32,711 nt of DNA from Oligoflexia bacterium (GTDB lineage: Bacteria > Bdellovibrionota > UBA1018), in the NCBI GenBank assembly GCA_023700925.1, contig JAMPXZ010000010.1, positions 1-32,711 on the forward strand. The letters run 5' to 3'. Both the position numbers and the translations under genes were made by a program. Position 1 is the first letter of the stretch; each line of letters opens with the position of its first letter. Positions 18,715-29,588 of the stretch are shown here, piece after piece. Under the pieces are notes generated by a model. The model saw only the letters and a list, made by a program, of their open reading frames with translations. It was not told where the DNA came from and did not search any database.

Positions 18715-20187
18715 TCAGCTCCGTCCGAGGTGGGGCCCTATGCGATGCACCTTGGCCATATTGGTCGTTCCCCGGCGAAGCGTAGGGATCCCCGCGGTGA
18801 TGACCACGAGGTCTTCGGGCTCGGCCCAGCCTTGGGCCAGCAGCGAAGTTTCCACCATGGTGAAAAGGTCGTCCGTGGAACCGATCTTGGGAACGAGCAC
18901 GCCTCTGACGCCCCAGCTGAGCGAAAGACGGCGAAGGACCGCCTCGTTGTCCATGATGGCGACGATCGGGGTCTCGGGCCGATAACGGGAAAGCGTCCGC
19001 ACCGCCGAGCCCGTATGGGTGATGCAGGCGATCGCGACCGCGCCGACATGGCGTGCGATCATCGCGGCGCTATGCTCGATGGCGTCCACCGTGGAGCCGG
19101 GCAGGGGCTGGATATCGGCCCGGGTGGAATTCATTTCGCGCGCGGTCTCCGCCTCGATGGCGATCCGGGACATCGTTCGCACCGCCTCGGCCGGGTAGCT
19201 GCCCGAGGCGGTTTCGCCTGACAGCATGATCGCATCCGTCCCGTCGAAAACGGCGTTGGCGACGTCACTGGCCTCCGCGCGCGTGGGCGTGGGCGAGTGG
19301 ATCATCGACTCGAGCATCTGCGTGGCGGTGATGACCGGGACCCCGAGCTCATGGCAGGTCCGGATCAGCTGCTTCTGGACGATGGGAACGCGCTCCGCGC
19401 CGATCTCCACCGCCATATCGCCGCGGGCGACGAGCAGGCCGTCGGTGACCTCGATGATGGAGTCGCGCGCGTCCACCGCCTCCTCGCGTTCGATCTTCGC
19501 CACGACGAGCGGCGGATTGGGCGAAAGCTTCCGCAGCATCTCCTTGAGGGTCACGACGTCGTTCGCGCTTCGCACGAATGAGAGCGCGATGGCATCCACG
19601 CCGTGGTCCATGCCGAACTTGAGATCGACGAGGTCTTTTTCGGTGAGACAGGGAATGGAAAGAGGCGTGCCCGGGAAATTCATCCCTTTATGGTCCGTCA
19701 GTCGCCCTCCGATGAGGACGTCGGCGACGATCTCCGGCCCGGAAACCTGGGTGGCCTCCGTCGCGATCTTTCCGTCGTCAAAAAGGATCCGAGCGCCCCG
19801 CTGCGTATCCGCCGCCACCGACTGCGCGATCTCGGCGGAGATCGGTACGAGGATCTTGCCGTGCGTGGAGGTTTTCGGGGTCGAGCCTTCCGGATAAAGC
19901 AGCAGCGTGTCGCCGGCCTTCAGCTCCAGGCCGCCCTTGGGCAGCGCGCCGACCCGGATCTTCGGGCCCTGCAGGTCCTGCATGATTGCGATCGGCCGAT
20001 GCGCTTTTCTGGCCGCCTCGCGTACCGAGCCGATGAGTCGGGCATGAAACTCGTGCGTTCCGTGGCTGAAGTTGAGCCGTGCGACGTCCATGCCCTCCGC
20101 GAGGAGGGTGCCGATCTGGAACTCCGTCGACGACGACGGGCCCAGCGTGCAGACGATCTTAACCTTTCTTCTGGATGAGGAGGGCAT
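18715..20187 (-). CDS. pyk: pyruvate kinase
   Basis: Converts phosphoenolpyruvate and ADP to pyruvate and ATP. Motifs: VKIVCTLGPSS at the N terminus, MDVARLNFSHG, MQDLQGPKIRVG, the K+/Mg2+-binding LVARGDMAVEIG, and the signature TATQMLESMIHSPTPTRAEASDVANAVFDGTDAIMLSGETA; the C-terminal domain includes RYRPETPIVAIM. The 490 residues are typical. Its ATG at 20187 lies inside the last codons of the upstream coiled-coil gene (29-bp overlap) with no clear ribosome site, which implies translational coupling. Confidence 0.97.
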   Translation of the reverse strand: MPSSSRRKVKIVCTLGPSSSTEFQIGTLLAEGMDVARLNFSHGTHEFHARLIGSVREAARKAHRPIAIMQDLQGPKIRVGALPKGGLELKAGDTLLLYPEGSTPKTSTHGKILVPISAEIAQSVAADTQRGARILFDDGKIATEATQVSGPEIVADVLIGGRLTDHKGMNFPGTPLSIPCLTEKDLVDLKFGMDHGVDAIALSFVRSANDVVTLKEMLRKLSPNPPLVVAKIEREEAVDARDSIIEVTDGLLVARGDMAVEIGAERVPIVQKQLIRTCHELGVPVITATQMLESMIHSPTPTRAEASDVANAVFDGTDAIMLSGETASGSYPAEAVRTMSRIAIEAETAREMNSTRADIQPLPGSTVDAIEHSAAMIARHVGAVAIACITHTGSAVRTLSRYRPETPIVAIMDNEAVLRRLSLSWGVRGVLVPKIGSTDDLFTMVETSLLAQGWAEPEDLVVITAGIPTLRRGTTNMAKVHRIGPHLGRS

Positions 20188-22207
20188 TGGAGCGTTTCAC
20201 CTTTTCGAGCTGCTCTTCGAAGTTTTCCGTCAAGTAACGCTCCCGCTCTTTGTGCTGTTGCTCGGCCTGTGCCAACTTCTGGTCGGCAGTCCGCTTTTCC
20301 TCCTCCACAGCCAGCTTGGTGCGTCTTTCGGCGTCGCGGAGCTGCAGCTCGTTCTTGGATTTGAGCTCCTCGAGCAGCAGCTCGTACTCCTGTTTCTGAT
20401 CCGCGAGCTTGCGGTTGCTGTCGCGGATCGTCTCGTTGTGCCTGGCGGTGTACTCGCGCTGCGCCAGCTTGGCGTTGAACTCCGCCTCCTGGCGCGTGGC
20501 GATGAGCTTGTGGCTCGAGTCCGCCTTCTGCGCCTCGAAGATCTCCTCGTATTCGCGGCGCATCTTCTCCAGGAGGGAGGCGTAGTTGCGGTTCAGGTTC
20601 TCGGTCTGCCGGTTCGCCTCCGAGTCCTTGTTCCGCAGCGCCTCGGCCTTCAGGAACTCGGTGTCCTGGATATGCGAGACGAAGCGGTTCTGCTCGGTGG
20701 TCTTCTCGGACATGAAACGGCGCTGGAGATCGGTGGTCGTGCTCTCCTTGTCGCGGACCGCCTCGTTGAGGCGGTCGGTATAGCTGCGTTTCAGGCTGTC
20801 CGTGCCGGCCTGGTTGCGATCGCGCTCGGCGGTCATGAGCTTTTCGTATTCGCGCGTGACGGACCGGCGGACGGCGGCTTCGGCCGCGGGGGAGATGTCG
20901 GTCGTGTCCTCGGAGGTCGCCCGGGTGTTCAGGCTCTTCTGCAGGGCGCGGATCTTGTCCTCATCGGAGGTGCGTTGCCGCTCGAGGGTGTCCTGGAACG
21001 CCTTGGCCTGCTCCTTGAGCGCCGTATCGCGTTGCTGGTTGGCCTCGTCGAGCCGGCTTTCCGCCGTCTTGCGCGTGGTCTCGCGCTCGCGTTTCTGCTG
21101 CAGCTCCATCTGCTTGCGATCCCGCACGAGCCCCTCTTCGAGCTCCTTGCGCTGCTCGTGGTTCTCCTGATTCGCCTTGGCGATCACGTCGGTGAAGTAG
21201 GCGTCCTTCTCGCGCAGCGATTCCTTGTTCAGGGAGGCGAGGTGACTCTCCTCCTGCTTGGCCCCATGCTTGGTATGCTCGAGCTGCCGGTTGAAATCCT
21301 CGCTGGCCGAGCGCAGCTTCGCGCGCCAGTCGGCATCGTGCTCGCGCACGGCCTCCTCGGCGCCTTCGCCCTTCTCGCGGTGGTAGCTCCGGCGCGCCTC
21401 GTTCAGCTCATCGAGCTGCTCACGCAGGCGGCGGGTTTCGCCCTGGGTGCTCTCGGCGAAGGTGCGGGCGCCCTTCTGCATCTTGGCGGAGTAGATGTTC
21501 TCGAGCTGCTTGACGCGCTCGTCGTTGCTCTCCTGGGCGGTCTCCAGGCGGTTATTGAAGTTGCGGCGCTCCTGTTCGAGCGCCCGCTGCATGAACTTGC
21601 GTTCCTTCTGGAGCTCTTCCTGGTAGCCGCGGATGACCTCGTTGAGCTTCTTTTCGGCTTCAGCGCGGAAGGCAGTGTGCTCCTCGGCCTGGGTCTGGTA
21701 AGCGGCGGACTGCCTTCCGGCCACGGAGTCGCGGGTCGCGCGCGCGTTGCGCTCGAGCTCGCGGTTATTCTCCTCCTGCAGCTCGTTCATCCGCTGGGAA
21801 TGGTGTTCGTCGGAGGCGGCGAGGTCACCGCGGTCCTTCTGGTGCTGTTCCGCGCTCGCGCGCTGGAGCTCCTCGAGCTGGCTCTGGAGCGCGTCGGCCT
21901 CCAGGCCGTTGAACCGGCCGAACTTGTCGTAGGTCTGCGCCTTGATGCGGTCGATCTCCGCCTTGGAGGTCCGGCGATCCTGCTCGATCGTGTCGTTCGC
22001 GTTGCGCCGGATGTGATTGACGGTTTCGTCGGTTTCCTTGCGGTACTTGTCGAGCGTCTGCTGATGCGCCTCTTCGAGCTTCCGGGTCTGCTCGGACTGT
22101 CGCTCGCGGGAGCGCCGCGCCTCGGTCCGGAGCTCTTCCTCGAGATCGTTCAGCGCTTTCTGGTAATAGTTGTAGCCGCCATCGGACGAAGGGGTGACGC
22201 CAGGCAT
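20159..22207 (-). CDS. large cytoplasmic coiled-coil protein of unknown function
   Basis: Not recognised. The 682 residues have no signal peptide or membrane segment and are almost entirely predicted long alpha-helix with heptad-like spacing, very rich in Glu, Arg, Lys, Gln and Asn. I see no cysteine and a single tryptophan (DADWRAKL). A break with helix breakers occurs near 460-475 (TSEDTTDISPAAEAAV), perhaps a hinge between two rods. Such composition fits a filament or scaffold, for example a cell-shape or cytoskeletal coiled-coil like crescentin or the Bdellovibrio Ccp, but sequence does not prove it. The start is ATG 22207 with GGAGG 7 nt upstream. It is coupled to pyk. A 729-residue frame on the other strand is a composition shadow. 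Confidence 0.75.
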   Translation of the reverse strand: MPGVTPSSDGGYNYYQKALNDLEEELRTEARRSRERQSEQTRKLEEAHQQTLDKYRKETDETVNHIRRNANDTIEQDRRTSKAEIDRIKAQTYDKFGRFNGLEADALQSQLEELQRASAEQHQKDRGDLAASDEHHSQRMNELQEENNRELERNARATRDSVAGRQSAAYQTQAEEHTAFRAEAEKKLNEVIRGYQEELQKERKFMQRALEQERRNFNNRLETAQESNDERVKQLENIYSAKMQKGARTFAESTQGETRRLREQLDELNEARRSYHREKGEGAEEAVREHDADWRAKLRSASEDFNRQLEHTKHGAKQEESHLASLNKESLREKDAYFTDVIAKANQENHEQRKELEEGLVRDRKQMELQQKRERETTRKTAESRLDEANQQRDTALKEQAKAFQDTLERQRTSDEDKIRALQKSLNTRATSEDTTDISPAAEAAVRRSVTREYEKLMTAERDRNQAGTDSLKRSYTDRLNEAVRDKESTTTDLQRRFMSEKTTEQNRFVSHIQDTEFLKAEALRNKDSEANRQTENLNRNYASLLEKMRREYEEIFEAQKADSSHKLIATRQEAEFNAKLAQREYTARHNETIRDSNRKLADQKQEYELLLEELKSKNELQLRDAERRTKLAVEEEKRTADQKLAQAEQQHKERERYLTENFEEQLEKVKRSNALLIQKKG

Positions 22208-22345: not shown

Positions 22346-22882
22346 TCAGAACTTCGTTTCCTCGAGCGACTTGCGGACCTTCTCTTCCTCGATTTTCGCG
22401 ATCTTCATCCGCATGTAGATAATGCGGCCGATGCGATAGAGCAGGGTGTTCTCCTCGATGGAATCCGTCTCGATGGACCGCCAGCCCTCGAGCACGTCCC
22501 GCTGGACGAGCTGGTCCTTCTGCACGGTGACCTTGATCGCGGGCTTGCCGTTGTAAAAGGCGCTGTGCGAGACGGTGACCTTGAGGCGGAACTTGGAGGC
22601 GAGAAAGGCGTTCGCGTTCCCGAACGACTCGGCGAAATTTTTCTGCTCGGTGTTCTCGGTCCAGCGGGTCTGGATGAAGCCGCCGTCGCGGTTCGAAACG
22701 TCGAGAGCCGAGGACTTCAGCGACTCGAGGACCGCTTGCCAGGCGGTGTTGAAGTCGGTGATGAAGATCCGGGTGAAAACCTGGGACGTGTCCTGGCCGA
22801 TGCTGCGTCGATAGGTGGTCGAGCAGCCGCCTGCCGGAACGGCGAGGGTAAGCGCCAGGAGGAGCAGAAAGGGGTTTCGCAT
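22346..22882 (-). CDS. outer-membrane-type lipoprotein, possibly BamC-like
   Basis: A 178-residue protein with a lipoprotein signal: MRNPFLLLLALTLAVPAGGC, lipidated Cys20. The mature domain alternates strands and helices (FNTAWQAVLESLKSSALDVSNRDGGFIQTRW and FRLKVTVSHSAFYNGKPAIKVTV), an arrangement resembling the helix-grip domains of BamC/NlpB; FxxAWxxVxxxL followed by a Asp-x-Gly-xI-xT strand is suggestive. It ends with a long charged helix (about 145-178). I propose an envelope role, perhaps outer-membrane protein assembly, at low confidence. Start ATG 22882. It is divergent from kpsF, and 138 bp upstream of the coiled-coil gene on the same strand. Confidence 0.7.
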   Translation of the reverse strand: MRNPFLLLLALTLAVPAGGCSTTYRRSIGQDTSQVFTRIFITDFNTAWQAVLESLKSSALDVSNRDGGFIQTRWTENTEQKNFAESFGNANAFLASKFRLKVTVSHSAFYNGKPAIKVTVQKDQLVQRDVLEGWRSIETDSIEENTLLYRIGRIIYMRMKIAKIEEEKVRKSLEETKF

Positions 22883-25628: not shown

Positions 25629-26177
25629 TCATCGAGAAAGACGGCGCTTGCGGACGTTGGCGATCGCCCGGCCCTTGATCGCCTCTTCCCAGCTTCCGCT
25701 CCCATCGGGGGGAGGAACGGGAGAGAGCGCCTGATACAGCTGGGCGAGCTGCTCCTCGTGGATGAGACGCTGGTGCTCGGCGCGCAGGGCGCTTTGAACC
25801 GCCGCGATCAGGATCTTCGAGTCGATGGGCTTGACCAGGTAGTCGGAGACGTCGAGGTGCATGGCTTCGGCGATGTCGGTCATCTCCGTGAAGCCGGTCA
25901 TCAGGATGAACGGCTTGCGATAGCCGCCCTTGCGAAGCTCGGCAAGGAGCTGGTCCCCGCGCATCAGCGGCATGGCGAGATCGCTCACGATGACGTCGGC
26001 CTCGAACTCCTGGAGCGCGACCAGCGCGGCGTTGGCGTCCTGGGCGGTGCGAACCTCGATCCCGCCCTTGCGCAGGATATCGGCCGCGGCCATGGCGAAG
26101 TCCTGGTCGTCATCCACGAGCAGGATGCGGGCATTGAGAAGAAAGAGCGAAGCCCAGCCGGTCGTGCTGTTGGTCAT
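25629..26177 (-). CDS. single-domain response regulator
   Basis: A receiver domain with all functional residues: acidic triad DDD 22-24, phosphoacceptor Asp66 (VSDLAMP), Thr94 (LMTGF) and Lys116 (LVKPID). A tail (about 130-182) includes a charged helix (RAEHQRLIHEEQLAQLYQAL), a Pro-rich turn and a basic end (NVRKRRLSR) but no recognised output domain, so it probably signals by protein interaction, CheY/DivK style. I chose ATG 26177, which overlaps the HEAT gene stop by 4 bp (ATGA), over GTG 26198. No histidine kinase is in the window. It is the last gene of the run from the aminotransferase. Confidence 0.92.
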   Translation of the reverse strand: MTNSTTGWASLFLLNARILLVDDDQDFAMAAADILRKGGIEVRTAQDANAALVALQEFEADVIVSDLAMPLMRGDQLLAELRKGGYRKPFILMTGFTEMTDIAEAMHLDVSDYLVKPIDSKILIAAVQSALRAEHQRLIHEEQLAQLYQALSPVPPPDGSGSWEEAIKGRAIANVRKRRLSR

Positions 26178-26944
26178 CGGCGAAGAGCGACCTTCCACTC
26201 GCGAATCCGCGCAGGCAGGGGAAGGCCCTGGCCCCGGATGGTGCCGGTAAGGCTTTCGAGCGTGGCGAGCGCCTGGAGCTGCAGCTCCGGGTCGCTGGAA
26301 TGGTCCAGCAGCGGCAGGAGCCGTGGAGCGGCCTGGGATGCTTTCAGCTGCCGAAGCGCCACGAGGATCCGCTGCGGAACCCAGAGTGCGCGGCCGCCGT
26401 GATAGTTCTCCTTGCGCTCGAGCGCGCTGAGGAGCGCCTCGACGGAGCCTTGGGGCTTGAGGCGGGCCACGGCCTCCACGGCTTCCTTGCGAACGACGAG
26501 CGCGGGGTCTTTCAGCAGGGGAAGGATCGACTCACGGGAAAACCTCGCGCTTTGGGGCGCGCCAAGCGAAGCCAGGGCGCGCAGAGCGCCGCTTCGGAGC
26601 ATCCAGGAGGGGTCCTTCAGGAACTTTTCGAGCACCGGAGCGCTCGCGGGACCTCCGAGCTTGGCGATTCCCATCAAGGCGACATAGCGCTGGTGGTCCT
26701 CGAGCTTGCGGTTGGCGGCGACAGCTGCGAGCGGTTTGACCGCCTGGGAACCATAGAGCGAGTCCCAGTGTTTCAGAAGCGGGCCGAAGGTGCGTGCACG
26801 GTTGGCGGAGATCTCGCTCTCGATCAGCTTCGCCGTAGGCGTGGGAGCGCCCAGGGCGGCGGGCGTGAGGAGAACCACGCTCAGGACGGCGAGCGCTGTT
26901 TTAGCTGTTAAGCATTTTTTCGAATTCCGCGACCAGGTCTTCAT
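26174..26944 (-). CDS. periplasmic HEAT-repeat protein
   Basis: A 256-residue protein with a signal peptide (MKTWSRNSKKCLTAKTALAVL, cleavage near ALGA-PT) and then helical HEAT/PBS-lyase-type repeats: HQRYVALMGIAKLGGPASAPVLEKFLKDPSW, LRSGALRALASLG, LVVRKEAVEAVARLKPQGSVEALLSAL, PQRILVALRQLKASQAAPRLLPLLD, ELQLQALATLESL. These scaffolds usually bind partner proteins. The frame is open to 27343, but ATG 26944 gives a proper signal peptide; it overlaps the upstream gene by 44 bp. It is coupled on both sides, to the membrane coiled-coil gene and to the response regulator. Function unknown. Confidence 0.8.
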   Translation of the reverse strand: MKTWSRNSKKCLTAKTALAVLSVVLLTPAALGAPTPTAKLIESEISANRARTFGPLLKHWDSLYGSQAVKPLAAVAANRKLEDHQRYVALMGIAKLGGPASAPVLEKFLKDPSWMLRSGALRALASLGAPQSARFSRESILPLLKDPALVVRKEAVEAVARLKPQGSVEALLSALERKENYHGGRALWVPQRILVALRQLKASQAAPRLLPLLDHSSDPELQLQALATLESLTGTIRGQGLPLPARIREWKVALRR

Positions 26945-27803
26945 CCGATTTAGCCAGTGTACCGGCCGCCGGTGCGGAAGTCGAGGGGGCTTGAGGCGCG
27001 GGCGCCGCAGCCGCGGGCGCCTCAACTGCGGGAGCGGGCGGCTGAAAGCTCTGCTCGACCTGGTCGACCAGTTTTTCGAAGTTGGCTTCGGGGTTACCGA
27101 GCGCGTCCAGAGGACTTGCCGGCGCGGGAGCCGGCGCCACTGCCGCTCTGGGAGCGGGAGTCGGAGCCGCCGCGGCGACGGCGCCCGAGGGCGCGTTCTG
27201 ACCGAGCGAGGCGCGGAGCTGGGCGTTTTCCTGCTGCAGGCGTTTGAGATTCGCCAGGTCGTCCTCGATGACGCTGTACTCGGCGAGCCGGCCTTCGAGC
27301 TGATGGATCTTCTCCTGCAGCTTTCCGATCTCGGTGTTGCCACCGGCCGAGGGCGCGCCGGTGCCCTTGGCGCGGGCGAGCGCGAGCTCCTGCTCGACCT
27401 TCGCCTTGTCCGTCATCACGGCTTCCATGGCCTTGGCCTGTTCGATCATCTTCAGCTCGAGAATGGCCATTTTCTTGAGCGCTTCGGGATCGTTCGTCAG
27501 TCCCGGTGCGACGTTGATGGAGACGCCTTGCAGAGGCTGCTGGGGCATCGCGATCTGGATTCCGGAAGCGGCGAGCAGCCCGAAGAGCTGGGCGCGGAGC
27601 TGTTCGGCGTCGTGAATCAGCTCGTTGAGATAACCCTTCACGACTCCGGCGGGAACTTCGTTCGCGGCTTCCAGCGCGCCGAGCCTGCGTTTGCGCAGCA
27701 CCCAAAAGGCCGCGTACCCGCCGCAAAGCAGGAAGATGAGAAGTGCCTCAAAGAGAAGCGCTTCGGCCGTGAAACGGGAAAAGACATAGACCCATGACGT
27801 CAT
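26901..27803 (-). CDS. membrane-anchored coiled-coil protein with Pro/Ala-rich tail
   Basis: A 300-residue orphan. A membrane helix at about 13-36 (TAEALLFEALLIFLLCGGYAAFWVL) is followed by RKRR, so the rest should be cytoplasmic by the positive-inside rule. Residues 105-205 contain helical, coiled-coil-like segments (ALKKMAILELKMIEQAKAMEAVM, IGKLQEKIHQLEGRL, LANLKRLQQENAQLRASL). A Pro/Ala-rich flexible tail (about 208-285) ends in the acidic amphipathic peptide SDEDLVAEFEKMLNS, which looks like a docking motif. The start is ATG 27803, 64 bp after the inositol monophosphatase stop; ribosome site not evident. Possibly a polar or envelope scaffold linked to the following response regulator; unproven. 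Confidence 0.7.
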   Translation of the reverse strand: MTSWVYVFSRFTAEALLFEALLIFLLCGGYAAFWVLRKRRLGALEAANEVPAGVVKGYLNELIHDAEQLRAQLFGLLAASGIQIAMPQQPLQGVSINVAPGLTNDPEALKKMAILELKMIEQAKAMEAVMTDKAKVEQELALARAKGTGAPSAGGNTEIGKLQEKIHQLEGRLAEYSVIEDDLANLKRLQQENAQLRASLGQNAPSGAVAAAAPTPAPRAAVAPAPAPASPLDALGNPEANFEKLVDQVEQSFQPPAPAVEAPAAAAPAPQAPSTSAPAAGTLAKSDEDLVAEFEKMLNS

Positions 27804-27867: not shown

Positions 27868-28695
27868 TTATTTAAGTGTAAATACGGCGGAAACGCCTGT
27901 CAAATCCGGTCTCAGGGCCTTCTGAAGCGCGCCATGGAGCCGCCGGTTCGTCGCGAGGATCTCCTGGCCAGCGATATGGAACGCTTTTCCGTGAAAGTCC
28001 GTGACCTTGCCTCCGGCCTCCTCGACCAGCAGGGCGCCGGCGGCGACGTCCCAGGGGGAAAGGCGCCGCTCCCAGAAGCCGTCAAAAACTCCCCGGGCCG
28101 TGTACGCCAGGTCCAAAGCGGCGCTTCCGGGGCGACGCACCGCGCGAGATGTGGCGCTGAGTCGCTCGAACGCCTGCATCTCGGCCCGGAGCCAATCGCC
28201 CTTGCGATAGGTGAAACCGGTGGTGAGAAGGGCCCGTTCGACCGAGCGGGTCTCCGAAACGTGGATGCGTTTTCCGTTGAGTCGGGCGCCTCTTCCCCGA
28301 ATGGCGACGTAGGTGTCCTTGAGGATGGGGTGATAGATCACTCCGACCACGGTTCGCTTGTCCCACTCGGCCGCGATGGAAACGCAGAACATCGGAAAGC
28401 CGTGGACGTAATTGGTCGTCCCGTCCAGCGGGTCGATGACCCAGCGTCCGGCGCCCGGTTTCTGCTCGCTCCCGGTTTCCTCGGTGAGAATCCCGAAGTC
28501 GGGAAAGGCGCGTTTCAGTATCCGGATCGCCGCGGCTTCCGATTCGAGGTCCGCGTTGGTGACAAGGCCGGCATCCCGCTTTTCGCCGACCTTGAGGTGA
28601 GTGCCGAAATGCTTCAGGAGCACCCGGCCCGAGGCGTGGGCTGCCGCGATCGCGGTTCTTGCGAGGGATTCGAGGGAAGGGCTTCGGTTTTTCAG
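27868..28695 (-). CDS. suhB: inositol monophosphatase family protein, probable CTG start
   Basis: Mg2+-dependent phosphatase of inositol or similar sugar phosphates, 275 residues from the proposed start. Motifs: LVTNADLESE, ILTEETG, WVIDPLDGTTNYVHGFP and SPWDVAAGALLVEEAGG supply the metal ligands. The only ordinary start is GTG 28623, which would remove the N-terminal helix; in-frame codons upstream encode LARTAIAAAHASGRVLLKHFG, which matches the family's first helix. The frame is stopped by a TGA 12 codons before CTG 28695, and that CTG overlaps the aminotransferase stop as CTGA, like the ATGA couplings elsewhere in this window. The gene symbol is by family only; substrate untested. Confidence 0.88.
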   Translation of the reverse strand: MKNRSPSLESLARTAIAAAHASGRVLLKHFGTHLKVGEKRDAGLVTNADLESEAAAIRILKRAFPDFGILTEETGSEQKPGAGRWVIDPLDGTTNYVHGFPMFCVSIAAEWDKRTVVGVIYHPILKDTYVAIRGRGARLNGKRIHVSETRSVERALLTTGFTYRKGDWLRAEMQAFERLSATSRAVRRPGSAALDLAYTARGVFDGFWERRLSPWDVAAGALLVEEAGGKVTDFHGKAFHIAGQEILATNRRLHGALQKALRPDLTGVSAVFTLK

Positions 28696-29588
28696 GTGAG
28701 TGTCTCCAGGATGTGGGCTCGGAGATCCTCACGCAGTTTCAGCGTCAGGGGCCCGGGTTTGCCTGCATGGGCGGGGCAGCCGACGGGTTTGCCGTCGATG
28801 CGGGTCACGGGGTAGACCTCTTTCATCGAGCTTGTGGCAAAGACCTCGTCCGCCTCGAAAAGCCGGGAGGCGGGAAAGCGGACCTCCCGAACGCGCAGGC
28901 CCTGCCTTCGCGCGAGCTGCACGAGCAGGTCCCGGGTGATTCCGGCCAGGATGCCGATGTCGGTGCTCGGGGTGATCAGCATGCCGTTCTTGACGTAGAA
29001 GATGTTGAAGCTGGTGCCCTCGGCGACCGCCCCTTCGAAGTCGCATAGCAGCGCATCATCGTAACCGTCCGCGGTGGCCTCGAGGTAGGTGAGGAGGCTG
29101 TTCAGGGAGTTTCCGCTCTTCATCGCGGCGGGAAGGGCCTTCGGCGGGTTGCGCCAGCGGGGGGAGAGCTGAAGACTGAGACCCTTTTGAATTTTGTCAG
29201 CCGTGGGCTCTTCGAGCGGGAGCAGATAGATCGTGTAGAGGGTCGGTGAAGTCAGGCTCGAGAGGCCGAGACCGATCCTGCCTTCGCCGCGGCTCACGAT
29301 GATCCGGCAGTAGAGCTCGACGCCGGGGCTCTTTTCCCAAAACGCCTTCGCGGTGCGGAGAATCTCCCGCTTGTAGTCCGCCGTGGACTGGCTCAGGACC
29401 ATCCGGCAGAGTTGAGCCGACTTTTCGAGCCGCGCCAGATGTTCGTCGAGCCGGAAGAACGCGCCGTTGTACGTGCGGGCCACCTCGTAGAGGCTGTCGC
29501 CGTAAAGATACCCGCGGTCAAAGACTGAAACCTTCGCCTCCTCCGGTTTCAGAATCTGGCCATTGACGTTTATGAGCGCGTTTTGCAT
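28692..29588 (-). CDS. PLP-dependent class IV aminotransferase (D-alanine or branched-chain type)
   Basis: A fold-type IV transaminase of 298 residues. The PLP Lys is Lys157 (AAMKSGNSLNSLLTYLEA), with Glu190 (VAEGTSFNIFYVKNG), the phosphate-binding GILAGITRDLL, and FATSSMKEVYPVTRIDGKPVG near the end. The N terminus, NVNGQILKPEEAKVSVFDRGYLYGDSLYEVARTYNG, is typical of D-amino acid transaminase, BCAT and aminodeoxychorismate lyase; sequence alone does not settle the substrate. Start ATG 29588 with no clear ribosome site. First gene of the minus-strand run that continues through the inositol monophosphatase, and divergent from the lipoprotein gene by only 17 bp. Confidence 0.93.
   Translation of the reverse strand: MQNALINVNGQILKPEEAKVSVFDRGYLYGDSLYEVARTYNGAFFRLDEHLARLEKSAQLCRMVLSQSTADYKREILRTAKAFWEKSPGVELYCRIIVSRGEGRIGLGLSSLTSPTLYTIYLLPLEEPTADKIQKGLSLQLSPRWRNPPKALPAAMKSGNSLNSLLTYLEATADGYDDALLCDFEGAVAEGTSFNIFYVKNGMLITPSTDIGILAGITRDLLVQLARRQGLRVREVRFPASRLFEADEVFATSSMKEVYPVTRIDGKPVGCPAHAGKPGPLTLKLREDLRAHILETLT

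Follow-up and report, generated by a model that had tools for sequence, protein, structure and literature searches.

The three overlapping genes studied here lie in a stretch of 32,711 nucleotides from an Oligoflexia bacterium (the window, meaning the whole of the DNA analysed). With roughly even confidence, and judging from sequence, we take the functional unit among them to be a pair of proteins, a membrane coiled-coil protein (the coil) and a HEAT-repeat protein (HEAT), which would form an envelope tether. The single-domain response regulator encoded behind them (the receiver) would have joined the pair only in this genus. By sequence comparison, the coil and HEAT are a conserved, old pair common to many Bdellovibrio relatives. 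The genes and their relevant neighbours in the window are as follows.

26901..27803, minus strand: coil gene, starting with ATG, 300 aa
26174..26944, minus strand: HEAT gene, ATG at 26944, end at 26174, 256 aa
25629..26177, minus strand: receiver (single-domain response regulator), ATG at 26177, end at 25629, 182 aa
26901..26944, minus strand: dual-coding overlap, read as the coil tail (EFEKML) in one frame and as the HEAT signal-peptide N-region (NSKKC) in the other
27868..28623, minus strand: inositol monophosphatase family (PF00459), upstream neighbour, the same neighbour in most near-relative loci
28692..29588, minus strand: class IV aminotransferase (PF01063), upstream neighbour, assigned by Pfam
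22346..22882, minus strand: lip223, conserved lipoprotein-like neighbour

A sequence-only reading of this DNA had linked the three genes by overlaps of 44 bp and 4 bp, and both overlaps were confirmed when the ORFs and junctions were recomputed. The HEAT gene starts within the coil gene, and HEAT and the receiver meet at an ATGA junction. The 44 bp at 26901-26944 are read twice, with SKKC in HEAT mirroring EFEKM in the coil. The genes of the trio are more than chance ORFs, because the coil and HEAT have relatives throughout the phylum and the receiver has a 63% identical counterpart in a genome of the same genus (G001), in the same place and with the same ATGA junction (L047). Of the neighbours, lip223 gave weak Pfam matches only (DUF3576 and NlpB). 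In many other loci it comes immediately after HEAT, oriented the opposite way; it is the commonest gene behind HEAT and occurs near the pair in many families. A 682-aa charged coiled-coil ORF at 20159-22207 of the window showed no Pfam or NCBIfam match; its relatives are 62% identical in G001 and, in part, 30% identical in G013, and it was not found in four more distant genomes tested. PADLOC returned generic HEAT and receiver matches and nothing else, and the search of the plasmid collection gave no match.

The coil family was searched with the single protein against 97 relatives and with a 29-sequence profile against 368 genomes of the phylum. The single-protein search found the family in 70 of the 97 relatives. 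With the profile it was found in 299/368 Bdellovibrionota genomes and in 206/234 near-complete ones, both counts being lower bounds since divergent members were missed. Gene order was compared in 126 loci, comprising all 69 other genomes from the single-protein search and 57 of 58 genomes chosen as a second set, which was picked for spread and completeness and not at random (G323 was dropped, its coil match being split over two contigs). A locus was evaluable if it had at least 500 bp of sequence downstream of the coil, as 121 of the 126 did. In 94 of these 121, HEAT is the next gene downstream of the coil and has the same orientation, and the two genes are adjacent in 53 of the 57 second-set loci. 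The HEAT start falls inside the coil gene or a few codons from the coil stop in many loci. In one locus (L051, G005) the coil and HEAT are parted only by a run of N; a natural coil-HEAT fusion there was considered and rejected, as the reading frame merely crosses this run. When six short peptide patterns were compared with named genomes, 16 loci were recovered, mostly from Bdellovibrio relatives and with two unspecific titles. The named relatives are Oligoflexia, Bdellovibrionales, Bacteriovoracaceae and the like. The window itself is one contig of an incomplete genome of 3.35 Mb.

HEAT is not adjacent to the coil in 27 of the 121 evaluable loci (including the N-run case), which suggests that the coil can work without HEAT. 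A whole-genome HEAT search at 1e-6 in 21 genomes lacking an adjacent HEAT found none in 20 of them, and the other, G055, has two distant HEAT matches elsewhere in the genome. Among 18 tested genomes without a coil match, four have clear HEAT relatives and three have weak matches to repeats in larger proteins. In three of these four a divergent membrane coiled-coil ORF occupies the slot before HEAT, and in the fourth, G155, HEAT is kept with no coil seen in the slot. The divergent ORFs in the coil slot (L181-L183, 4030-5063) end in a tail of the form DE..DVFKK and had escaped the profile search.

In loci of near relatives the pair still stands among HflX, the aminotransferase, the phosphatase, lip223, KpsF and a DsbA-like gene, and in more distant families mainly lip223 of these neighbours is still detected beside it. 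The neighbours of the pair are metabolic genes and give no hint of its function. Between the two species of the genus, dN/dS is 0.14 for the coil, 0.20 for HEAT and about 0.31 for the receiver, and synonymous change is nearly saturated. In the open literature searched, we found no published function for the homologues, no assigned role for the coil or HEAT and no paper describing the two as a pair.

In the coil protein a single hydrophobic span precedes RKRR, and the N-terminus is predicted to be outside. By a heuristic count, a hydrophobic span is present in 122 of the 126 coil ORFs and is followed by at least two K/R in 111. The remainder is predicted to consist of a cytoplasmic coiled coil with the core LAEYSVIEDDLANLKRLQQEN, an Ala/Pro-rich linker and a C-terminal helix, DLVAEFEKML. 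Helices are predicted at 106-147, 155-203 and, at the C-terminus, 286-299, in a model of low confidence (mean pLDDT 66). The conserved hydrophobic positions recur with a period of 3.5 over 106-147 and 3.4 over 155-203, which is coiled-coil-like. In the 29-sequence phylum alignment Y176, N193 and F294 are invariant, and the core LAEY..IEDD.ANL...QEN is more constant than the tail motif. No known family accounts for the coil in sequence comparisons. It had no Pfam match above the cut-off (ABC_tran_CTD, 18.7 vs 32) and no NCBIfam match at 0.01, while 16 members of the family gave scattered weak coiled-coil matches only against Pfam. The homologue in B. bacteriovorus HD100 reached 18.8 with SurA_N_3, below the cut-off of 27.2, and the best match of the coil profile among PDB sequences was prefoldin (E 0.0011), followed by cytochrome b562. 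As a marker of HEAT presence the N-terminal Trp of the coil is a weak candidate, with exceptions among genomes of both kinds.

The acidic tail of the coil had been proposed as a docking peptide for the receiver, and the distribution of the tail does not support this, although some receiver encoded at another place in the genome may bind it. The motif [DE]F[ED][KNR][ML]L is the C-terminal end in 51/51 intact coil proteins of the window's class (three of the 54 class loci were left out of the count, L051 for its run of N and L078 and L087 for being cut at contig ends). One of these 51 has this receiver adjoining, 28 have HEAT without the receiver, and in 22 no HEAT was seen, with the contig ending within 500 bp in two of the 22. 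Because the motif is kept in all 51 and only one has the receiver adjoining, EFEKML was not made for this receiver, and its class-wide presence without the receiver shows that it predates the receiver's arrival. We also rejected the idea that the motif is a product of the overlap with HEAT, since class members lacking HEAT keep it too. Among proteins from outside the class, the loose form of the motif occurs in 39 of the 66 that have HEAT and in none of the 6 that do not; the strict form occurs in 8 of the 66. In a group of families outside the class, represented by L127, L131, L140, L144-L147, L154, L169 and other loci, a tail of the type ALEE..D.DKMA.EA replaces EFEKML.

The HEAT protein belongs to the HEAT_2 family (PF13646), which it matches at 59.8 bits against a cut-off of 27.7, and its N-terminus carries the signal-peptide-like stretch LSVVLLTPAALGA, in agreement with the sequence-only reading. 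By a hydrophobicity heuristic, 93 of the 94 coil-adjacent HEAT proteins have such a stretch, and L060 is slightly under the limit; HEAT is thus predicted to be exported. The structure model is a confident solenoid (pLDDT 88.8). Its Foldseek matches are HEAT/armadillo solenoids, the best being 7p0h (E 4.3e-5, TMq 0.56), and the best match among PDB sequences is an alphaRep fusion (1.3e-30).

The receiver matches Response_reg (PF00072) at 85.6 bits against 30.2, with residues 18-128 aligned to positions 1-111 of the 111 in the profile. D23/D24, D66, T94 and K116 are present and there is no second domain, so the earlier description of a complete receiver without output was correct. The expectation that the trio is conserved together failed when gene order was checked. 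For 112 loci the downstream sequence reached 1.5 kb or more, and in one of these, that of G001, the window's own receiver type stands beside the pair. A receiver of any kind within 2 kb behind the coil was found in two (L047 in G001 and L074 in G030), and the remaining 110 have none within that distance. A search of 58 genomes at E 1e-18 matched the receiver in four of them. Besides its own genome and G001 these are two in which the match is a 38% identical stretch of an ORF of about 470 aa located elsewhere. In the genome itself 41 receiver matches were counted; apart from the receiver itself, the closest is 32% identical. In L074 the slot behind HEAT (1938-2962) is filled by a different, unrelated single receiver, whose own start lies about 95 bp past the HEAT gene, and by another ORF after it, which presumably resembles a heme oxygenase. 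The slot behind HEAT takes up different genes. Since two of the 112 loci have any receiver and this one occurs only in G001, the receiver is a genus-level addition. Its dN/dS indicates purifying selection at the sequence level and, together with the place shared only with G001, points to a working gene that is young in the operon.

To place the pair in a model predator, we used G223, which we identified from its locus as B. bacteriovorus HD100. The locus encodes a 513-aa S8 protease of 52.985 kDa with a DTG motif at 132. PMC6510308 gives 52.98 kDa and Asp132 for BspE/Bd2692, and because mass and motif position match, we take the protease to be BspE/Bd2692. A Flp pilin-like ORF follows BspE in G223 after 27 gene calls (three of them doubtful), which is where PMC5430801 puts bd4000, between bd2719 and bd2720; Bd numbers therefore appear to run at about one per gene here. 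In HD100 the coil has 325 aa and HEAT 241 aa, and both were confirmed as relatives of the window genes. They are encoded at 2609722-2610699 and 2608991-2609716, respectively, on the minus strand of the G223 contig, 6 and 5 genes from BspE/Bd2692. A transposon mutant of the hypothetical gene Bd2684 showed no attachment to and no killing of prey, and was complemented, according to PMC6561027. Bd2684 is eight numbers below Bd2692 and so within a few genes of the pair (L126, 2098-4724), as far as the numbering goes. Counting back eight genes from Bd2692 leads to lip223, and skipped or unannotated genes would lead to a 154-aa gene, a 516-aa lipoprotein or HEAT. The proteome list of PMC12546842 gives Bd2683 as uncharacterised with no secretion mark, and this entry would fit the 516-aa lipoprotein as Bd2684 better than lip223. 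Bd2684 may be lip223 or a neighbouring gene. No papers naming Bd2685-Bd2690 or Bd2697 were found in the literature searched, and a term search of two transcriptome papers (PMC2797640, PMC3627812) gave no match.

Several explanations for this arrangement can be weighed. The sequence-only reading proposed that the receiver binds the acidic coil tail and that the three proteins together form a trans-envelope signalling or polarity module. The gene order and the ATGA overlap shared by both species of the genus are in line with this proposal, as is the purifying selection on the receiver. However, this receiver adjoins the pair in a single one of the loci compared, the tail is unchanged in class members without it, an unrelated receiver was taken up in the same slot in G030, and a Pfam scan of 20 window ORFs found no histidine kinase. 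We therefore consider such a three-part signalling module highly improbable. What stands of the proposed trans-envelope coupling is the conserved coil-HEAT pair, with partners predicted on opposite sides of the inner membrane; the trio does not stand. The coil and HEAT could also be merely co-transcribed, held in one chromosomal block without joint function. The entire block from the aminotransferase and phosphatase through the coil, HEAT and lip223 to KpsF and the DsbA-like gene is kept in near relatives, unrelated functions included, and the coil is kept in those evaluable loci that lack an adjacent HEAT. Against this, most metabolic neighbours are not detected in the distant families, yet the coil and HEAT stay adjacent in nearly all second-set loci, and the coil stop and HEAT start overlap or nearly touch in most of the loci compared for this. 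This makes mere co-transcription a somewhat doubtful explanation.

A role in prey attachment would follow if the coil, HEAT and lip223 formed an envelope machine of which the neighbouring Bd2684 were a part. The short distance of the HD100 pair from BspE/Bd2692, the loss of attachment and killing in the Bd2684 mutant, which was complemented (PMC6561027), and the frequent position of lip223 behind HEAT are consistent with this, but the numbering allows four genes as Bd2684, and numerous genomes of uncultured bacteria with no recorded way of life carry the family too. We regard this role as unlikely. Our preferred reading is still the coil-HEAT envelope tether pair with a receiver added in this genus, for which linkage, order, the membrane span, the signal-peptide-like start and the strong conservation of two coil segments are in evidence at the sequence level. 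The coil would act as an inner-membrane tether with its N-terminus out and its C-terminus in. It may pair through its cytoplasmic coiled coil, where a buried Asn in the invariant core would fit a parallel dimer, and the amphipathic helix that ends its flexible tail may hold a conserved cytoplasmic partner. The HEAT solenoid would serve as a periplasmic adaptor for the coil's short outer N-terminus or for an envelope partner. Where the receiver is present, its translation would be coupled to that of the pair, and it may modulate the pair or just share the pair's transcript.

In this phylum, known for its predators, most near-complete genomes carry the pair, HD100 as identified here among them. 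A core envelope pair near a gene with a published attachment defect is widespread and directly testable in HD100. In its boldest form, which is speculative and quite unlikely, the coil, HEAT and lip223 would be an undescribed trans-envelope machine of Bdellovibrionota, with the tail clamping a cytoplasmic partner and HEAT linking to the outer envelope, used by Bdellovibrio in prey attachment and lately given a phospho-switch in one genus. The locus also illustrates that three closely overlapping genes in a single genome may be a misleading sign, as the third gene is a late arrival.

Among known Bdellovibrio proteins, Ccrp is a coiled-coil protein that prevents cellular indentation, according to a title cited in PMC8938487. 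The coil and Ccrp are alike in both being coiled-coil proteins of Bdellovibrio, and they differ in place. We take Ccrp to be Bd2697, which is beyond Bd2692, whereas the coil lies below Bd2692, and the coil as Ccrp was rejected on this ground. A 407-aa coiled-coil protein with a signal-peptide-like start is encoded about 8 kb from the coil gene (L188, 13742-14965; 2618741-2619964 of G223), and it is possibly Ccrp.

The receiver resembles CheY-type single-domain response regulators in its complete receiver domain, its D23/D24, D66, T94 and K116 residues and its lack of an output domain. It is unlike them in having a 48-residue C-terminal extension without a Pfam match, in being translationally coupled to an envelope gene and in that no kinase was seen nearby. 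HEAT shares the solenoid of HEAT repeats with HEAT_2 proteins, the bilin lyase/NblB type and designed alphaRep proteins, and differs from them in its predicted export, its conserved NY..GKA.WVPQ loop and its position mostly behind the coil gene. ZipA and YhcB/ZapG are membrane-tethered bacterial scaffolds with an N-terminal span, a cytoplasmic coiled coil or flexible linker and a short conserved C-terminal element. The coil has the same order of parts, one N-terminal span, a cytoplasmic coiled coil and linker and a conserved short C-terminal element, although it has no Pfam match to such families, and to our knowledge neither the coil core motif nor a HEAT partner belongs to them. The coil would be a membrane-tethered coiled-coil scaffold.
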